A stretch of 64,000 nucleotides of DNA from Acholoe squamosa. Taxonomy: Eukaryota > Annelida > Polychaeta > Phyllodocida > Polynoidae. Where the stretch lies: positions 73,852,659-73,916,658 of the forward strand of contig OX439038.1 of NCBI GenBank assembly GCA_949317995.1, in the 5' to 3' direction. Numbering within the stretch: position 1 is the stretch's first letter; every line of letters begins with the position of its first letter. A model generated the notes under the pieces. The model was not told the origin of the DNA. It saw nothing but the letters and a program-made list of their open reading frames with translations, and ran no database searches. Shown here one piece after another: positions 5,148 to 26,800 of this stretch. The position numbers were made by a program, and so were the translations under genes.

Positions 5148-5690
5148 AAGTACTATATAAAAAGGCACCCTGTCCCAGTAACTAAAGCTGTAAGTAGTAT
5201 ATGAAAAGACACCATGTCTCTGTGACTAAAACTGTAAGTAGTATATGAAAAGACACCATGTCTCAGTGACTAAAACTGTAAGTAGTATATGAAAAGACAC
5301 CATGTCTCAGTGACTAAAACTGTAAGTAGTATATGAAAAGACACCCTGTCCCTGTTGACTAAAACTGTAAGTAGTATATGAAAAGACACCCTGTCTCAGT
5401 GATTAAAACTGTAAGTAGTATATGAAAAGACACCCTGTCTCAGTGACTAAAACTGTAAGTAGTATATGAAAAGACACCATGTCTCAGTGACTAAAACTGT
5501 AAGTAGTATATGAAAAGACACCCTGTCCCAGTGACTAAAACTGTAAGTAGTATATGAAAAGACACCCTGTCCCAGTGACTAAAACTGTAAGTAGTATATG
5601 AAAAGACACCCTGTCCCAGTGGCTAAAAATTGTAAGTAGTATATGGAAAGACACCCTGTCCCAGTAACTAAACCTTGTATATGAAAACAG
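5148..5690. repeat. 44-bp minisatellite
   Basis: About 12 head-to-tail copies of a 44-bp unit containing TAAGTAGTATATGAAAAGACAC and then CC(A/C)TGTC(T/C)C(A/C)GTGACTAAAACTG. Spacing of the TAAGTAG word is exactly 44 in the central copies. Units alternate between ATGTCTC and CTGTCCC variants. There are no unique spacers between units, so this is not a CRISPR array. The reverse complement of the unit holds ATACTACTTACAGTTTTAG, shared with the repeat at 34 kb. Confidence 0.9.
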
Positions 5691-5890
5691 ACCTATGGAC
5701 AGCAATCACGTGCCTGTAGCTCGCACCACTGATGAAATTTGGACCTTAACGCTATGTGACTTTTAATCACTGTTTGGGCCACAGGCAGCTGATTTCAATC
5801 AGGGTATGGCTACAGGCAGCTGATTGCAGTGAGCCTCGTTTTCAGGTCCAACTAGGTCATGACATCACATGCAGCAATGACAGCCACCTA
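5691..5890. other. Insertion interrupting the 44-bp array
   Basis: About 200 bp of unrelated DNA separates the main array from four diverged units. It holds an imperfect direct repeat, C(C/T)ACAGGCAGCTGATT, near 5780 and 5813. I see no terminal repeats that would name it. Confidence 0.4.
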
Positions 5891-6040
5891 ACTAAAGATG
5901 TAAGTAGTATATGAAAGAGTGCCCTGTCGGAGTGACTACAGCTGTAAGTAGTATATAAAAAAGCACCCTATCCCAGTAACTAAAGCTGTAAGTAATATAT
6001 AGAACCACACTTTGCCTCAGTAACTACATTTGTAAGTAGG
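5891..6040. repeat. 44-bp minisatellite, diverged tail
   Basis: Three to four degenerate copies of the same unit (GTAAGTAGTATATGAAAG and GTAAGTAGTATATAAAAA words). They mark the right edge of the array beyond the interrupting segment. Confidence 0.75.
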
Positions 6041-6111
6041 AACTGGGAAGGGACAGAGACTCTTTGCCTATAGTAGTGTAGACGTGTACATTGTTCTTAA
6101 GGATTAAATTA

Positions 6112-6415
6112 CAGGGGTGTAGGAATAGGGGGGCAGTCCCCCAATACCAGACCAATGGGGCAGACTATCTTAGCCCCCCCCCCCAATTTTGAAACCAATT
6201 TACACTTTTATTGTGAACTTGGTCATTTCTCACAAATTGATCAAAATAGCAGGAGAAATTCTAAATTTTCAAAATTTTCCTTGGGGGCATGCCCCTAAGA
6301 CCTCTAAAATTCAAAGTGCTTTAGTCCCTGTTGAAATTGTCGATGTGACCCGCATGACCCGCATTGCCCCCCCCCCTCCCCCATCCTCCAAGTCAAGTTG
6401 CTTCCGACACCACTG
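6112..6415. mobile_element. hAT-like non-autonomous element (remnant)
   Basis: The left end CAGGGGTGTAGGAA is matched by the right end, whose reverse complement reads CAGTGGTGTCGGAAGC. Ends starting CAG, an interior with poly(C) tracts, and a GGGGGCATGCCCC block all recall hAT-derived short elements of animals. The expected 8-bp target duplication is not visible, so boundaries or family could be wrong. Confidence 0.5.
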
Positions 6416-19620: not shown

Positions 19621-20320
19621 ATGTAAAAAGTCGAGAATCAATATTTTTCACATCTATAACTCAGCTAAATGGCAGGCACCTCCTCCCGAGTGCTGATATG
19701 CTTCCAATGTTTCTTCCTCACTGTGTTTGTCAATAGATCAGTGGATGAGGCTTTTCCATAGGTTTAAATACTTATCTTACCATCCTCTTCCTCCCCCGAT
19801 GAAGGCATTGTCTGGTGCTTGGGGCTAGGTTTAAAAACTTAATTGTGCATTGTGATTCATAATATGCCTGGAGAAATGTTATTCTTCTTCTAATTGCATG
19901 ACATCCGTCGTGTATTATGGCTGAAATCTATACCTTTAGGCGACATTAGCTGCTCCATTAAAGGAGCGTTAAAGGGAATTGGCTGAGACTAGTATGACTT
20001 CATAGGATAGATTTCAACTTTCAACAATTGTGCAAAATGAATAGTTGAAATTCATAATTCTAGTATTTCATATTTTCACACATGCCCTAGAATGATGATA
20101 TGATTATGTGATAAGTCAGCCTATTTGATAATTATATTATTAATGGAATATAGGTTCTAAATATTGAAGTTTGTCAGTGTAGGGAAATCAACAAATGAAA
20201 CACAACATCCAGCTGATTATCGACTATAACTATACTTAGAAAGACCAATAATGCAAAGTTAAATTGCTTGAGAAATTATTTTAAAAACGTTGGGCACTGT
20301 ACGTAATACACGTATGTAGT
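19621..20320. other. No gene seen
   Basis: AT-rich flank of the LINE insertion. No supported gene or repeat. Confidence 0.5.
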
Positions 20321-20363
20321 ACATTCATACACTACTCACCTTTCACAAAACCCTCATTTATAC
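20321..20363 (+). repeat. Left edge of 33-bp minisatellite / LINE target duplication
   Basis: This short stretch is one unit of the array that resumes at 25063. It shares TTCACAAAACCCTCATT with 25077-25094, a variant not typical of other units (which read CCACAAACCCCTCATT). The shared variant supports a target-site duplication of up to about 30 bp around the LINE, with three mismatches. Confidence 0.6.
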
Positions 20364-21416
20364 ACACAAAATATCCAAGCGCAAACAGACCTGTTATTAA
20401 AACATGCACAGAGATTCGAGAAAATAGATGAAGACATAAAGAGAAAAATTGTCGTGGTAAAAGGCCTAGAGGAATCCGAAAATGAAAACTTATTGGAAAA
20501 GATTAACCAGCTGTTCAGAGATGTGCGCGCGGATTTTGGCATTGAAAGTGTTCAAAGTTGTAGTCGCGCAGGAACACCCACCACACGAAACCAAGATGGC
20601 GGCGCCCATGATGTAAACAAGAAGACGTACCGACCGATTAAAATTGTCTTCAATAATGTATATACCAAGGCGAAACTGATGAGACTACTCAAGAATTTAA
20701 AAGGCAAGTTTCTATATAAGCATGTATCCATTGGCGATGAACTTGGAGAGGAAGAACAAAGAGAATTTAATGACTTACGTGCCATGCACTATCTGGCCAA
20801 GCGACAGGGGTACAACACACAACTGAGACAACGTAGACTTATAATTGAAAAGAAGCCTTACGAACACAGTCAACTTCACCAGCTACCATACCAAGACCTG
20901 AACATGCAGAAAGCAAATGAGGCCGATACACCTGATGGTCTAATGTTCAAGTCACACCTCCATAAACTGTCTAATCTTTTCCGTTGTCAAATATCCTACA
21001 GAGGAGTGGAGTACAACAGCTCCGAGCAGGCGTATCAAGTGTCCAAGGCCCAAGCTTGTGGTCAGAACAATCTAGTCCTATCCTTAAAGAAGCTAGAAGA
21101 CCCGGTACAAATAATGTATGAAGCACGAAAAATCAGACCCACAGCAGAATGGAACAAGATGGCCGCCACAGTCATGCAAGAGATCAACGAGCAGAAATTC
21201 TCCATACCATATATGAGGGAGTACCTAATCTCTACTGGAAACAAAAACTTGTATGAGGCTAGTTTCCACCCTATATGGGGGGTAAAAATGCACTTCGGAC
21301 AGGCAAACCATTGCACAACTGGGAATGCTAAAGGAGAAAACCTGATGGGACAAATCCTCCAAAAAATCCGTGGGCAACTAACCAGGGTACAGGGAAACCA
21401 AGATGAAAACCAATAA
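20364..21416 (+). CDS. LINE ORF1p fused to a NADAR domain (5'-partial)
   Basis: The frame is open from the element's left junction; the first ATG-like start annotators might choose (GTG at 20454) is internal, so about 30 residues of real protein precede it and more is missing. Order: a short heptad-like helix (20370-20445), then an RRM-like ORF1p region (about 20445-20870; KIVVVKGLEE strand, RPIKIVF strand), then a NADAR domain (about 20943-21395). NADAR hallmarks seen: KLSNLF, YRGVEYNSSEQAYQVSKA with the conserved Glu (21024-21026) and Lys (21045-21047), EWNKMAATVM, the TGNKNLYEAS...WG block (Trp 21276-21278) and GENLMGQILQKIR at the end. Known: NADAR proteins act on NAD/ADP-ribose derivatives, and some remove ADP-ribose from guanine bases. 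Inferred: this ORF1p binds element RNA and may process ADP-ribose on nucleic acid. No stop or frameshift interrupts the visible 351 codons, unlike ORF2. Confidence 0.85.
   Translation, partial: TQNIQAQTDLLLKHAQRFEKIDEDIKRKIVVVKGLEESENENLLEKINQLFRDVRADFGIESVQSCSRAGTPTTRNQDGGAHDVNKKTYRPIKIVFNNVYTKAKLMRLLKNLKGKFLYKHVSIGDELGEEEQREFNDLRAMHYLAKRQGYNTQLRQRRLIIEKKPYEHSQLHQLPYQDLNMQKANEADTPDGLMFKSHLHKLSNLFRCQISYRGVEYNSSEQAYQVSKAQACGQNNLVLSLKKLEDPVQIMYEARKIRPTAEWNKMAATVMQEINEQKFSIPYMREYLISTGNKNLYEASFHPIWGVKMHFGQANHCTTGNAKGENLMGQILQKIRGQLTRVQGNQDENQ
20592..20603 (+). promoter_or_regulatory. YY1-type motif inside ORF1
   Basis: CAAGATGGCGGC is a perfect YY1 core lying within ORF1 coding sequence. A second AAGATGGC occurs at about 21156. 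It may be coding coincidence. Confidence 0.25.
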
Positions 21417-21681
21417 CTATTTTCTGTACATTATATAGCCTAGTTCCTAACTGATATAATGACATAGTCCTCGAAATGTAACTGCCGACTCATACATAGA
21501 TCACCATGGGTAGCCAGAAGTGCTGTAAGCCCGTGGAGGGGGGGGGGTATGTATATTTTTATAACGTGTGGTCTACAACGACCTGGATAGATGTAACATA
21601 CGTCAATGGTATGAACACATATGTATACATTGTGCAGCATGTTGACAACATAGAATTTATATCAATTTACCAAATACCAAT
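21417..21681 (+). other. LINE spacer between ORF1 and ORF2
   Basis: A 265-bp spacer with a run of ten Gs near 21538-21547. No coding function is supported; the small + strand ORF at 21506-21691 lies in another frame. Confidence 0.6.
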
Positions 21682-24526
21682 ATGTCTTTAAAAAATAAAT
21701 TCAGAAAAGGTTTCTCAATAATACATATGAATGCCAGGAGTGTGAGAAATAAGTTTACAAAAATCAAAGAGGAGCTGGATAATATTTTCATAGATATCAT
21801 ATTATTTTCTGAGACTTGGTTGAATGAAATGGATTGTAGTAATTTATATAGCTTCCCAAGGTATAATCTCTTTCGTCAAGACCGTATTAGTATATATAGG
21901 TGAGGTGGACTTTGTGCGTACGTCGATGAAAGTCTATCATGTTCAATAGATAGATTTAAAGCTTTGAACAGGATTAATGAAAATATAGAAGTTCAATGGT
22001 TACTGTCAGCTAAAGGTGCAAATAAAAAATGTATTGTATGTAATATCTATAGACCACCTGCGGGAAACCTTATGGAATTCTGTAATACCATGCGAGCCTT
22101 GTTACTACAAATTGACAACTTGGATAGATATGATATTTTTATCCTTGGGGATTTCAATGTAAATGTATTAAGTAATACCCCAGATAGGCAACTTCTTATA
22201 GAAACCTTTGATCAATTTAATCTTGTGCAACTTGTTAATGAAGTAACAACCACATCAGGTACCAACACGTGTATAGAATTGATCTTCTCAAACTGTGACA
22301 CTATTACCTCCAGTGGTCCACTGAACGTACACCTATCTGACCACCTACCGGTACATATCTTAAAAGCCCAAATACAAACAAAGAAAAATTTTAGAACTTT
22401 TCTTGGAAGATCTTATAATAAACTTAATATAGAGAAATTTTATTTAGACCTAGAAAATTGTAACTGGGACTATTTCAATGAATCGAATGACCCAGGTGTT
22501 TGCTGGTCTATACTAGAAAATATGATCAAAAGAATGCTGGACCTACAATGTCCAGTAAAAAGTTTCAAGGTCGTAGACAAACCTAGCCCATGGATGTCTA
22601 ATGAGTTGCTTGAAAAGATCAATGATAAAAATGCATTATTAAAATTAGCTAGAAAAAACAAGGATATCATATCTTGGCATAGAGCTAGAGAAAGTAGAAA
22701 CCAGGTAAATAGAGACATAGAATTGGCTAAAGAAACATATTATTCTAACTTATCGGAGGTATATAAGAAAGATTCTAAAAAATTTTGGAGTACTATAAAG
22801 GATATCATACCTTCTAACAAATCTAATACTAAGTCGATCATGTTAACTGACGAAAATGGCCAGGTAATTTCAATTAATGATACTTCTACTTATATAAATA
22901 ATTTTTTCGCCGAGATTGGTCCTAAACTCGCTGAGAAGCATAACACTATGTTTAACTTTAATGGCACCCGATGTGAGGTGGATATGCCGGAGATGCACTT
23001 TACAGATGAAGAGATCATAAAAAGTTTATCTGATATAGACACATCTAAGTCATCTGCCATAGATTATTTATCTACTGAAATATTCAAAAAAACTATGGTA
23101 AAGTTTCCCCAAAAATTTATAAAAATTATTAACTTAATCACAAATACAGGCCGAATTCCAGACAGTTGGAAAATAGCTACAGTGACTCCATTACCTAAGG
23201 GTGGAGATCCATCCAATGTTTCAAATCTTAGACCGATTAGTGTCTTACCTGTACCAGGCAAAATTCTTGAAAGACTTATTCATAATAAATTAAGTGAACA
23301 CTTAGAAAGATATGATATATTATCGAAAAATCAAGGCGGTTACCAGAAATGTAAATCTACACTGGACTCGATCTCAGTAATAGTTGATGATGTATTAAAA
23401 AATAGAAATGAAGGTAATATAACAATGGCTGCTTTTATTGACATAAAAAAGCTATTGACATAAAAAAGCTTTTGATTCTGTAAATCATTTGATATTATTA
23501 AAAAAACTTGAGCAATATGGAGTAAGAAATAGGAATTTAACCTTAATTGAAGATTATTTGTCAAGAAGACAACAATGTTCTATAACCAACCATATACGTT
23601 CTGAAAAAGCAAATTTATCGTGTGGGGTACCGCAGGGCTCAATTTTGGGTCCTTTGTTCTTCTTATTGTACATTAATGACTGTATATCTGATAATGATAC
23701 ACATAAAACTTTGTTATACGCCGATGACTCTGTACTATATGTATCAGGTAAAAATTTAGAGGTATTAACAAATGAGCTTGCTATTGCACTTAACTCCTTC
23801 TCTCTTTGGTCTTCAGCCAACAAACTTACAATGAATGAATCTAAAACGAAAATAATGACCTTTGCCTCAGCAGTTAAGTTGAAAAGAATACAGAAGCCTA
23901 AGATTGTTCTTAATGGTAAAACTTTGATGAATGTTCAATCATACAAATATCTAGGAGTCACCCTAGACCAAGAAATGAATTTTAATATGCATATGAGAAA
24001 TGTTATTAAAAGTGTACGGTTTAAATCATTAATTCTGTATAAAACAAGAAAATATTTATCAACCGCAGCAAGAATATGAATGTATAAAATGCATATTATA
24101 CCTATTATTGACTACTGTGATATACTATATAACGGAACTAATGCTGAGTTGCTACAAATACTTCAGAGATTACAAAATAAGTGTTTAAAGACCTGTTTAG
24201 ACGTACACATACTGACTCCAACTGATCTCGTACATAAAGATACAAGGAGCCCGAAACTCGAAGCTAGAAGATTACACCATATAAAAATGTTTGCTTTTAA
24301 AAGATCTACAATGGAAGAATATGTTAAGCCAACTGGTAGGACAACAAGATTCTCTAGTGCTCCAGTATTAAAATATATGAAAATTAATTGTACAGCTTAC
24401 ACAAAATCTCCTGAATGTCTAAGTGCTCAAACATGGAATAATTTGGATATTGAAACTAGAAATATTAGAGACAAAATTAAATTTAAAGCGTTATCAAAAA
24501 AATGCATGCTAGAATCTATTGAATAA
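21682..24526 (+). pseudogene. LINE ORF2: APE endonuclease and reverse transcriptase, broken
   Basis: The ATG at 21682 starts an APE-like endonuclease: SIIHMNARSVRNKF, LFSETWL, the central ILGDFNVNV, and the C-terminal LSDHLPVHI block, over about 230 residues. The RT follows (WKIATVTPLPKGG, LRPISVLPVPGKILE, then GVPQGSILGPL near 23622 and YADD at 23717-23728). A C-terminal region of LINE type follows (YKYLGVTL, IIPIIDYCD), ending at 24526; total about 940 codons. Lesions: TGA at 21901-21903 in the endonuclease; a 17-bp tandem duplication at 23437-23470, with an A run one base short, that puts the RT active-site half out of frame; and TGA at 24077-24079. Known role: nick target DNA and copy the element RNA. 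This copy cannot do so. Codon use is strongly A/T-ending, unlike the GC-rich islands nearby. Confidence 0.9.
23437..23470 (+). repeat. 17-bp tandem duplication in the RT gene
   Basis: ATTGACATAAAAAAGCT occurs twice head to tail (23437-23453 and 23454-23470). The frame before it ends at the TAA at 23461-23463. The frame after it also needs one more base in the A run, so two changes occurred here. Confidence 0.9.
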
Positions 24527-25062
24527 AATATTCTGTAAATAATTATACATATTGTATCAAAGACGGACAATGTTAAACCTACTCCTTATATAGGTACATT
24601 TGATTTAAAGACTGCTTGTGATCATCTAAGTTGACTGTGTCAAATCCAGCATAATGTTATTTATTATTGGATTATATTTGTGTATGTGGTAAAATTGTTT
24701 ATATGACATGGGGGGGGGGGAAATCATAACTATTCTGCACTTAAAGTAGATTGTAAGTGCCCCAAACTGTTCAAAATAATTGTTATTGTATCTTATAAAT
24801 GTATGAATACCGGTAATGATTTACATGGCTAGATCATAACAACATTTCTAAAATGACGATCTGGTCATTAACTGTTTGGTCATGTTATTATAATAAAAAA
24901 TTACCTCATAAAAAAGGGTAATTTTCAATATACCAATGTATGTACTTAGGCCAATTATACAGAAGTCACAACGTGCATAATTACAATACAAAGCATGCCT
25001 ATGTTTACATGATGTATGTACTACTAGACCAAATAAAGTTTAAATTTGTTCAAAAAAAAAAA
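24527..25062 (+). terminator. LINE 3' UTR, poly(A) signal and tail
   Basis: A noncoding 3' region with a G run (24711-24720), a short stem-loop near 24894-24922 (AAAATTACC pairing with GGTAATTTT around an A-rich loop), AATAAA at 25032-25037, and an A tract at 25052-25062 that joins the minisatellite directly. This defines the 3' end of the element. Confidence 0.8.
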
Positions 25063-26800
25063 TACAGTACTCACCCTTCACAAAACCCTCATTCATATAT
25101 ACTACTCACACCCCACAAACCCCTCATTCATACACTACTCACCATCAACAAACCCCTCATTCATACACTACTCACCACCCACAAACCCCAAAGTCATATA
25201 CTACTCACACCCCACAAGCCTCTCATCCATACACTACTCACCACGCACAAACTCCTCATCCATAAACTACTCATATCTCACAAACCCCTCATTTATATAC
25301 TACTCACCATCTACAAACCCAACAAACCCCTAATTCATACACTACTCACACCCCACAAACCACAAAGTCATATACTACTCACACCCCACAAGCCTCTCCT
25401 CCATACACTACTCACCACGCACAAACCCCTGATCCATATACTACTCATATCTCACAAACCCCTCGTTCATATACTACTCACCATCCACAAACCCGACGAA
25501 CCCCTCATTCATACACTACTCACCAACCACAAACCCCTCATCCATATACTATTCACATCTCACAAACCCCTCATCCATATACTACTCATCATCCACAAAC
25601 CCTTCATTCATTCATTACTCACACCCACGAACCCTTCATTCATTCATTACTCACACCCACAACACCTTCATCCATATACAACTCACACTGACACACCCTT
25701 CATAAAAAGACTACTTACATCCCACAAACCCCTCACTCATACACTACTCACCATCCACAAACCCCTCACTCATACACTACTCACCATCCACAAACCCCTC
25801 ACTCATACACTACTCACACCCACAATCCCCTCATTCATACACTACTCACCATCCACAAACCCCTCATTCATACCCTACTCACCATCCACAAACCTCTCAC
25901 TCATACCCTACTCACCATCCACAAACCCCTCACTCATACACTACTCACACCCACAATCCCCTCATTCATACACTACTCACCATCCACAATCCCCTCATTC
26001 ATACACTACTCACCATCCACAATCCCCTCATTCATACCCTACTCACCATCCACAAACCTCTCACTCATACACTACTCACCATCCACAAACCTCTCACTCA
26101 TACACTACTCACCATCCACAAACCCCTCATTCATACATACCCTACTCACCATCCACAAACCTCTCATTCATACCCTACTCACCATCCACAAACCTCTCAC
26201 TCATACACTACTCACCATCCACAAACCCCTCACTCATACACTACTCACCATCCACAAACCTCTCACTCATACACTACTCACCATCCACAAACCCCTCATT
26301 CATACATACACTACTCACCATCCACAAACCCCTCATTCATATACTACTCATCATCCACAAACCCCACACTCTAACACTACTCACCATCCAAAAAACCCTC
26401 ATTCATACACTACTCACACCCCACAAACCCCTCATTCATACACTACTCACACCCGGAACCCCCTCATTCATATACTACTCTCCATCCACAAACCCCTCCT
26501 TCATATACTACTCATCATCCACAACCCCCTCATTCATACACTACTCACTATCCACAAACCCTTAATTCATACACTTCTCATCTCCTGCAAACCCCTCAAT
26601 ATTACACTCCTCACCATCCACAAACCCTTCATTCATACACTACTCACACTACGAACCCTTTTATCATATTCTACCCTCACCCACAATCCCCTCATTCCTG
26701 CACTACTCACCATCTACAAAGTCATACACTATGCACAGCCCACTCCTCATTCATGGGAAACCATAATTATATCATGCACTACCCACCACCCACAAACCCA
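25063..26800 (+). repeat. 33-bp minisatellite
   Basis: About 50 copies of a 33-bp unit whose typical form is ACTACTCACCATCCACAAAC followed by CCCTCATTCATAC. Spacing is exactly 33 in regular parts (25741 to 25774). Variants include AATCCCCTCATTC and CCCCACAAACC. Since 33 is a multiple of three, one frame stays open for 541 codons (24940-26565) reading a HTLLTTHKPLI-type repeat; this is an artefact, not a protein. The repeat decays after about 26560. Confidence 0.92.

Follow-up and report, generated by a model that had tools for sequence, protein, structure and literature searches.

An annelid LINE family with a NADAR domain in its ORF1 protein

The DNA analysed here (the window) comprises 64,000 nucleotides of the polynoid annelid Acholoe squamosa (assembly GCA_949317995.1, contig OX439038.1, positions 73,852,659 to 73,916,658), and it contains a copy of a long interspersed nuclear element (LINE) whose first open reading frame (ORF1) encodes an RNA-binding region joined to a C-terminal NADAR domain. 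That a LINE ORF1 can carry a NADAR was already known; what is new is that there are carriers outside the L1/Tx1 group, that there is evidence of selection on the domain, and that its active site is retained. An earlier note, made from the letters alone, had described the frame at 20364-21416 as uninterrupted and as ending in a NADAR. Both descriptions were borne out: the frame encodes 350 amino acids (aa) without a stop, all motifs quoted in that note occur in its translation, and the profile search proposed there as a check was significant, with NADAR (PF08719) matching residues 208-339 (E 5.8e-21, 75.9 bits, cut-off 35.1). The NCBIfam model of the riboflavin-intermediate N-glycosidase scored 69.0 bits, narrowly missing its cut-off (73.7). 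Judged by these profiles, the domain is a NADAR whose orthology with the riboflavin enzyme is not clear.

The structure of the window protein was predicted with AlphaFold2 from an input that also held 20 prokaryotic NADARs, rows that may guide the model. In ten-residue blocks, the mean predicted local distance difference test score (pLDDT) was 90-98 at residues 201-300 and 51-97 at residues 301-350. When this model was compared with the Protein Data Bank (PDB) by Foldseek, just two matches had E <= 0.001, namely 8bau (E 2.9e-09), a NADAR with bound ADP-ribose, and YbiA 2b3w (E 5.2e-07); the structural comparison suggested in the earlier note thus returned a NADAR-like predicted fold with 8bau as its best match. 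Identity between the window NADAR and the 20 aligned prokaryotic NADARs was 22-30%.

Active-site residues were mapped to the window protein by HMMER alignments to 8bau and by spacing (K95 lies 7 residues after E88). In the Phytophthora NADAR, E43 and E125 hold the distal ribose, and in the E. coli C7 NADAR, E88, K95 and D171 matter, D171 occupying the E125 position (PMC11543638). E221 and E298 of the window protein align with E43 and E125, and the active-site lysine is K228. Among 18 aligned domains (16 from LINEs and 2 from host genes), both glutamates were present in 18/18, the K228 position held K in 16/18 and R in 2/18, and W263 (Phytophthora W89) was invariant. From these alignments the NADAR of the ORF1 protein is apparently catalytically competent, and it is quite probably an active hydrolase.

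The RNA-binding part of the window ORF1 had no Pfam match of its own, and block-mean pLDDT was below 70 over residues 1-180. Its likeness to human LINE-1 ORF1p emerged only with profile A3, built from 12 ORF1 N-terminal parts, which matched that protein (2yko, E 6.4e-05) best among the 10 matches listed, the top 4 of which were L1 ORF1 proteins. In the fold search, the LINE-1 ORF1p central domain appeared at rank 19 (E 0.058), amid other ferredoxin-like folds. Two full-length copies (L029 and L022) gave coiled-coil-like Pfam matches, all below cut-off. The family's ORF1 protein is, as predicted from these likenesses, a LINE-1-type RNA-binding protein with a C-terminal NADAR. Of the coiled-coil/RRM-like region (RRM, RNA recognition motif) described in the earlier note, the RRM-like part was supported by profile A3; the 5' truncation of the insert has cost the window copy most of the supposed coiled coil.

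The fusion recurs across copies of the family

The genome (1.48 Gb, 63 contigs) was searched for further copies with the 350-aa protein; 116 of 3407 candidates were scored, and the match counts are lower bounds. At least 119 matches to the fusion were found, 33 of them in stop-free frames of at least 455 aa, and four of these 33 belong to a sister family with 55-56% identity to the window protein. The fusion recurs at dozens of loci with 83-98% identity. When the RNA-binding part alone was the query, 151 matches were found. To examine the join, 0.9 kb was read across it in each of 11 further copies (at least 72% identity, reaching residue 188 or beyond) that were picked by eye among the matches listed, twelve rows ending at residues 132-180 lying outside this check. 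NADAR sequence continued past residue 260 in nine of the 11, often with frame breaks (in L087 to residue 267 only, followed by a gap). The other two, L086 and L089, break off inside the NADAR at residues 203-206, and the deletion in L086 also takes out most of ORF2. No copy examined across the join ends before the NADAR. The earlier note had proposed a search for other copies, and these do have the domain; as far as examined, the NADAR-ORF1 fusion appears to be a trait of the whole family. A fusion unique to one locus, or formed by chance, was rejected by the recurrent copies, the matches passing the Pfam cut-off, and the ratio of nonsynonymous to synonymous change (dN/dS).

Many genome matches to the 350-aa protein end at residues 286-309, near the run TGGGGGGT at 21273-21280 of the window. 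This run, which lies in NADAR coding sequence, is likely a frameshift hot spot, through slippage or assembly error.

Selection on the NADAR part

Substitution was measured among 18 members of the window's family, the window copy plus 17 that were fetched. They were picked because their frames are open, a choice that removes stops and that alone cannot yield dN/dS values such as those found. Mean dN over mean dS was 0.056 for the NADAR part (153 pairs, dS 0.768, dN 0.043, 6 pairs saturated), 0.060 for the RNA-binding part (18 copies, 8 pairs saturated) and 0.098 for the N-terminal part (17 copies). Differences in the NADAR part at codon positions 1, 2 and 3 were 6.56, 3.44 and 25.72%, respectively. 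The dN/dS check put forward in the earlier note gave about 0.06 for the 18 copies. Purifying selection on the NADAR part is strong, as it is on the RNA-binding part, and the NADAR is almost certainly a selected, functional part of the ORF1 protein.

The window copy itself was compared with its nearest relatives. It shares 97.8% of 1050 bases with the nearest copy, L029, the differences amounting to 15 silent and 7 replacement codons; against L030 there are 18 silent and 9 replacement codons. Because changes are so few at about 2% divergence, the intact window ORF1 needs no selection after insertion, and an intact frame of 350 codons can be chance. The constraint acts on the family during replication, so that later selection on this copy is not needed to account for an intact ORF1 beside a broken ORF2. 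Of the two causes offered in the earlier note, chance is thus possible and later selection is dispensable.

Structure of the window element

The features of the element, all on the forward (+) strand, are as follows.

20366..25063 (approximate ends), +: LINE insertion, 5'-truncated, with minisatellite on either side and an A-run at the 3' end
20364..21416, +: ORF1 remnant, open, 350 aa, with about 105 N-terminal residues lost to truncation
20364..20933, +: predicted LINE-1-type ORF1p RNA-binding part (RRM, possibly C-terminal domain [CTD]), residues 1-190, from profile A3 and the fold search
20934..21398, +: predicted NADAR domain, residues 191-345, with active-site E221, K228 and E298, from Pfam, alignment A1 and the fold search
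21682..21903, +: beginning of ORF2 as far as its first stop, sharing the frame of the following piece, from DNA read by eye and likeness to the ORF2 start of L026
21904..23463, +: ORF2 piece with the endonuclease and the first part of the reverse transcriptase (Exo_endo_phos_2 E 7.6e-10, RVT_1 E 3.8e-07; scanned from 21964)
23436..23469, +: 17-nt tandem duplication breaking the ORF2 frame (repeat D11)
23459..24079, +: ORF2 piece, remaining reverse transcriptase with YADD (RVT_1 E 1.6e-17; scanned from 23489)
24080..24526, +: ORF2 piece, C-terminal, after a stop

The insert is surrounded by a 33-bp minisatellite (a unit at 20322-20365 and the array from 25062), and an A-run before 25064 forms its 3' end. 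The stop-to-stop frame of ORF1 spans 20307-21416, its opening bases being flanking minisatellite, and other copies of the family have about 105 extra residues at the front. An apurinic-type endonuclease and a reverse transcriptase are both present in ORF2 (Exo_endo_phos_2, RVT_1); the C-terminal piece had no Pfam family above cut-off. The three breaks in ORF2 that the earlier note had reported were located at a stop at 21901-21903, at the frame break in the 17-nt duplication, and at a stop at 24077-24079. As read from its sequence, the window element is dead and 5'-truncated, and it belongs to a LINE family with a NADAR-bearing ORF1. Six other ORFs of the window were scanned and had no Pfam family, and the window had no Rfam and no tRNA match. 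The minisatellite (20322-20365 and 25062-26720) amounts to about 50 copies, part of which form an open frame of 541 aa.

NADAR-bearing ORF1s and reverse-transcriptase groups

When NADAR matches were scored in the same genome (the best 150 of 3224 candidates), 150/150 were above the Pfam cut-off, and two of them, L001 and L002, look like host genes. The other 148 and the 116 fusion places share two, giving about 262 places, a part of which were inspected. Twenty loci were examined with 7-9.5 kb each; they were picked for variety, mostly for long frames, and are a non-random sample. LINE ORF2 sequence lay downstream of the NADAR frame in 20/20, although at L009 this is no more than a weak match to an endonuclease where the locus ends.

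NADAR-bearing ORF1s accompany at least three reverse-transcriptase groups in this genome. Group A, which is putatively Jockey/CR1-like, includes the window, L010, L015-L018, L020 and L022-L028; group B (L013 and L021) is L1/Tx1-like; and group C consists of L011, L012 and L014. With queries that differ in length, scores against L1 ORF2p were 272 bits for L021 of group B (human L1; 1051 aa, with a zf-RVT match below cut-off), 96 bits for L012 of group C (72 to R2), 36.6 bits for L018 of group A (949 aa; 48.1 to R2), and 54.6 bits for L026, the sister in group A (699 aa). The window piece, whose 499 aa hold no more than the beginning of the reverse-transcriptase domain, reached 39.9 bits along 114 residues. 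By these scores the window reverse transcriptase is not close to L1 and stands outside the L1/Tx1 group.

Clades of NADARs and groups of reverse transcriptases share members wherever both could be placed: the window with L026; L015, L017 and L027; L011, L012 and L014; L013 and L021; and L023 and L024 with L010, L025 and L028 (reverse-transcriptase support 85/98, three rows partial). L018 and L020 form a NADAR clade (100/99) and are unresolved in the reverse-transcriptase tree. This correspondence suggests that the NADAR and the reverse transcriptase were passed on together. An apparent domain swap at L019, with the NADAR of one group and the reverse transcriptase of another, is best taken as two adjoining elements, because the locus's own endonuclease piece matches the group of its NADAR.

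In several NADAR LINEs of group A, ORF1 and ORF2 are separated by one or two additional ORFs, each some 215-266 aa long (L010:4470-5270 and 5386-6120; L023:4499-5242; also L009, L024 and L025). These ORFs are one related family with the motifs GGFNDLC and PTPP; the two that were scanned (the first of L010 and that of L023) had no Pfam family, and a profile of the family gave a single PDB match, with E 0.57. By eye they presumably resemble SGNH hydrolases. In group C, the L011 ORF1 (729 aa, NADAR strand) continues past the NADAR into a second stretch with IIGNSNARG, which is likewise presumably SGNH-like, and the L011 ORF1 protein may therefore hold two hydrolase-like domains. An extra ORF at L015:4602-5324 gave a sub-threshold match to a NarE model (E 0.0011, 19.7 bits, cut-off 27) that is probably chance.

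Origin of the domain

L001 and L002 are canonical-looking, single-frame NADAR genes, and the identity of L001 to bacterial NADARs reaches 59%. A NADAR tree was built from 28 rows labelled LINE (L004 and L007 without an ORF2 check), 2 host rows and 18 of 36 prokaryotic loci, the prokaryotic sample having been fetched with L001 as query and leaning toward it. Left out were 15 of the 20 copies L029-L048 (near-repeats), L003 and L005 (broken), and L006 and L008 (doubles of L010 and L009). Within the fetched sample, L001 and L002 grouped with NADARs of Paenibacillus and Bacteroidota, apart from the LINE domains, and this position speaks against the idea that the host's own NADAR gene was recently captured. 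A single clade (100/99) united 25 of the 28 LINE rows, and the three on the L1/Tx1 side (L007, L013 and L021) stood elsewhere on a long branch. In approximately unbiased (AU) tests, neither a single clade of all 28 LINE rows (p-AU 0.262) nor a clade of 21 rows (without L007, L013, L021, L011, L012, L014 and L019; p-AU 0.29) was rejected, and NADAR may have been captured once or several times. A search of IMG/VR found no relatives of two NADAR queries.

Proposed function and alternative explanations

The best explanation of these data as a whole, to which we give a probability of roughly one half, is that the NADAR on the ORF1 protein strips guanine-ADP-ribose from the element's own nucleic acid in cis. 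The ORF1 protein would coat the element RNA, so that the NADAR would ride on the retrotransposition ribonucleoprotein (RNP); there it would remove ADP-ribose from guanine bases of the element RNA or first-strand cDNA, keep the template readable for the reverse transcriptase, and counter ADP-ribosyltransferases (ARTs), whether from the host or from intruders. Characterised NADARs supply the guanine substrate of this proposal, and action in cis is what we infer. The earlier note's eraser of ADP-ribosylation on the element's RNA or cDNA is plausible. By analogy, guanine-ADP-ribose on the element's nucleic acid may be the main substrate, at somewhat less than even odds. Among hydrolase families, only NADARs proved able to reverse guanosine ADP-ribosylation in RNA, and the NADARs tested were inactive on 5'- and 3'-phosphate ADP-ribose (PMC11833690), which disfavours the processing of ADP-ribosylated RNA ends that the earlier note had raised; this evidence bears on ADP-ribosylated ends and not on NAD-capped ones. 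A guanine-N2 ADP-ribosylating activity is present in six edible clams, from one of which CARP-1 was cloned (PMC11209040). It is doubtful, though conceivable, that the NADAR LINEs of this genome are a large, anciently diversified set that depends on the ORF1p NADAR; this would imply that retrotransposons are restricted in animal germ lines through guanine ADP-ribosylation of RNA or cDNA, which these LINEs undo in cis.

Several observations weigh against stripping of guanine-ADP-ribose in cis. Positions that contact ADP-ribose vary while the catalytic core is kept, and the substrate may therefore differ: at the Phytophthora R79 position, R is found in 4/18 domains (those of the window's family and of the two host genes); at the R93 position, 3/18 have R and the window has A; and 12/18 have W at the W133 position. 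A host writer of guanine-ADP-ribose, which a counter-defence would call for, did not turn up in two weak tests: in this one genome, no match was found to the Scabin-like family PF22596, for which no control was detected either, or to DarT PF14487, for which 1/14 controls was detected. By the latter search the element also appears to lack the DarT partner of a DarT1-NADAR toxin-antitoxin system. Sequence cannot separate action in cis from action in trans. The dN/dS values are within-family only, since dS against the sister family was saturated in 53/54 pairs. Finally, the nematode NADAR SNA-3 has an essential role in RNA processing (PMC9303266), and roles of this type mean that a NADAR need not involve defence.

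Other explanations were weighed against the same evidence. The NADAR might hydrolyse a small NAD-derived molecule made by host TIR/ART enzymes, such as a cyclic ADP-ribose variant or another signalling or repair product, and so blunt signalling or clear by-products. The variable ligand-contact positions would permit other substrates, YbiA is an N-glycosidase on riboflavin intermediates (PMC11543638, PMC9303266), and viral NADARs have been posited to prefer, perhaps, soluble ADP-ribose derivatives (PMC9503650). We nevertheless consider a small-molecule substrate unlikely: the fusion with an RNA-binding ORF1 protein would point to a nucleic-acid target near the RNP, and for the NADARs of eukaryotic RNA viruses the same paper considers macromolecular targets the likelier ones (PMC9503650).

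A role as a module of RNP assembly or RNA metabolism, in which the domain binds ADP-ribose-like ligands or partners, as in SNA-3, and hydrolysis is secondary, would be in keeping with the processing of transposition RNA intermediates suggested for Ectocarpus (PMC12477816). Both catalytic glutamates are kept in 16/16 LINE domains, down to 21% identity with that of the window, a conservation that would exceed the need of a pure scaffold, and such a module seems about as improbable as a small-molecule hydrolase. A functionless passenger of a chance or neutral fusion might have been supposed from the window copy, which is dead and one of many; for the family this is refuted by the dN/dS of about 0.06 with its third-position excess, and since the active site is conserved across diverged families and the domain is present with three reverse-transcriptase groups, we regard it as hardly credible.

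Relation to known systems and implications

A search of the literature on NADAR/YbiA/DUF1768 and transposons found one relevant report among the papers listed, PMC12477816, most subscription papers lying beyond the search. In its available part, several Tx1 LINE families of Crassostrea gigas carry a NADAR in ORF1, as the window element does in the ORF1 protein of an animal LINE; that part gives the oyster case one sentence, without an analysis of selection. The same report describes a NADAR in the Gypsy Pol of Ectocarpus, which like the window family is a retrotransposon lineage with a conserved NADAR but is a long terminal repeat (LTR) element of a brown alga with the domain in Pol instead of ORF1 (PMC12477816). 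The reverse transcriptase of the window element differs from that of the oyster elements in not being close to L1. Tx1 belongs to the L1 side of LINEs.

L1, CR1 and L2 LINEs with a type II ORF1 (coiled coil, RRM and CTD) share with the window family the RNA-binding part and the layout of ORF1 followed by endonuclease and reverse transcriptase in ORF2 (PMC4120745). In that survey of 448 Jockey-superfamily elements, the ORF1 types were CCHC, RRM, PHD, esterase and Transposase 22, and the words NADAR, YbiA, ADP-ribose and DUF1768 are absent from its main text (2014). With YbiA (2b3w) and the Phytophthora nicotianae protein (8bau), the window NADAR has in common the fold, the active-site Glu/Lys/Glu and the conserved Trp (W263); it differs from YbiA-type hydrolases in its fusion to an RNA-binding ORF1 protein and in several ligand-contact positions. 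Animal RNA viruses carry NADARs proposed to undo host ADP-ribosylation, and like the window family they are RNA-based selfish elements of animals (PMC9503650), but they are viruses and not endogenous retrotransposons.

RNA binding, zinc knuckles, and PHD and esterase domains are familiar from LINE ORF1 proteins, and a conserved ADP-ribosyl hydrolase would be a different kind of activity for them. Selection that keeps the NADAR intact in many copies suggests a benefit to the element. If the NADAR acts on the element's nucleic acid, this would hint at reversible ADP-ribosylation of guanine as a defence against transposons. The role of animal NADARs and of the guanine-ADP-ribosylating activity of clams (PMC11209040) would then become testable, and the arms race argued for animal RNA viruses and phages (PMC9503650) would extend to endogenous retrotransposons.
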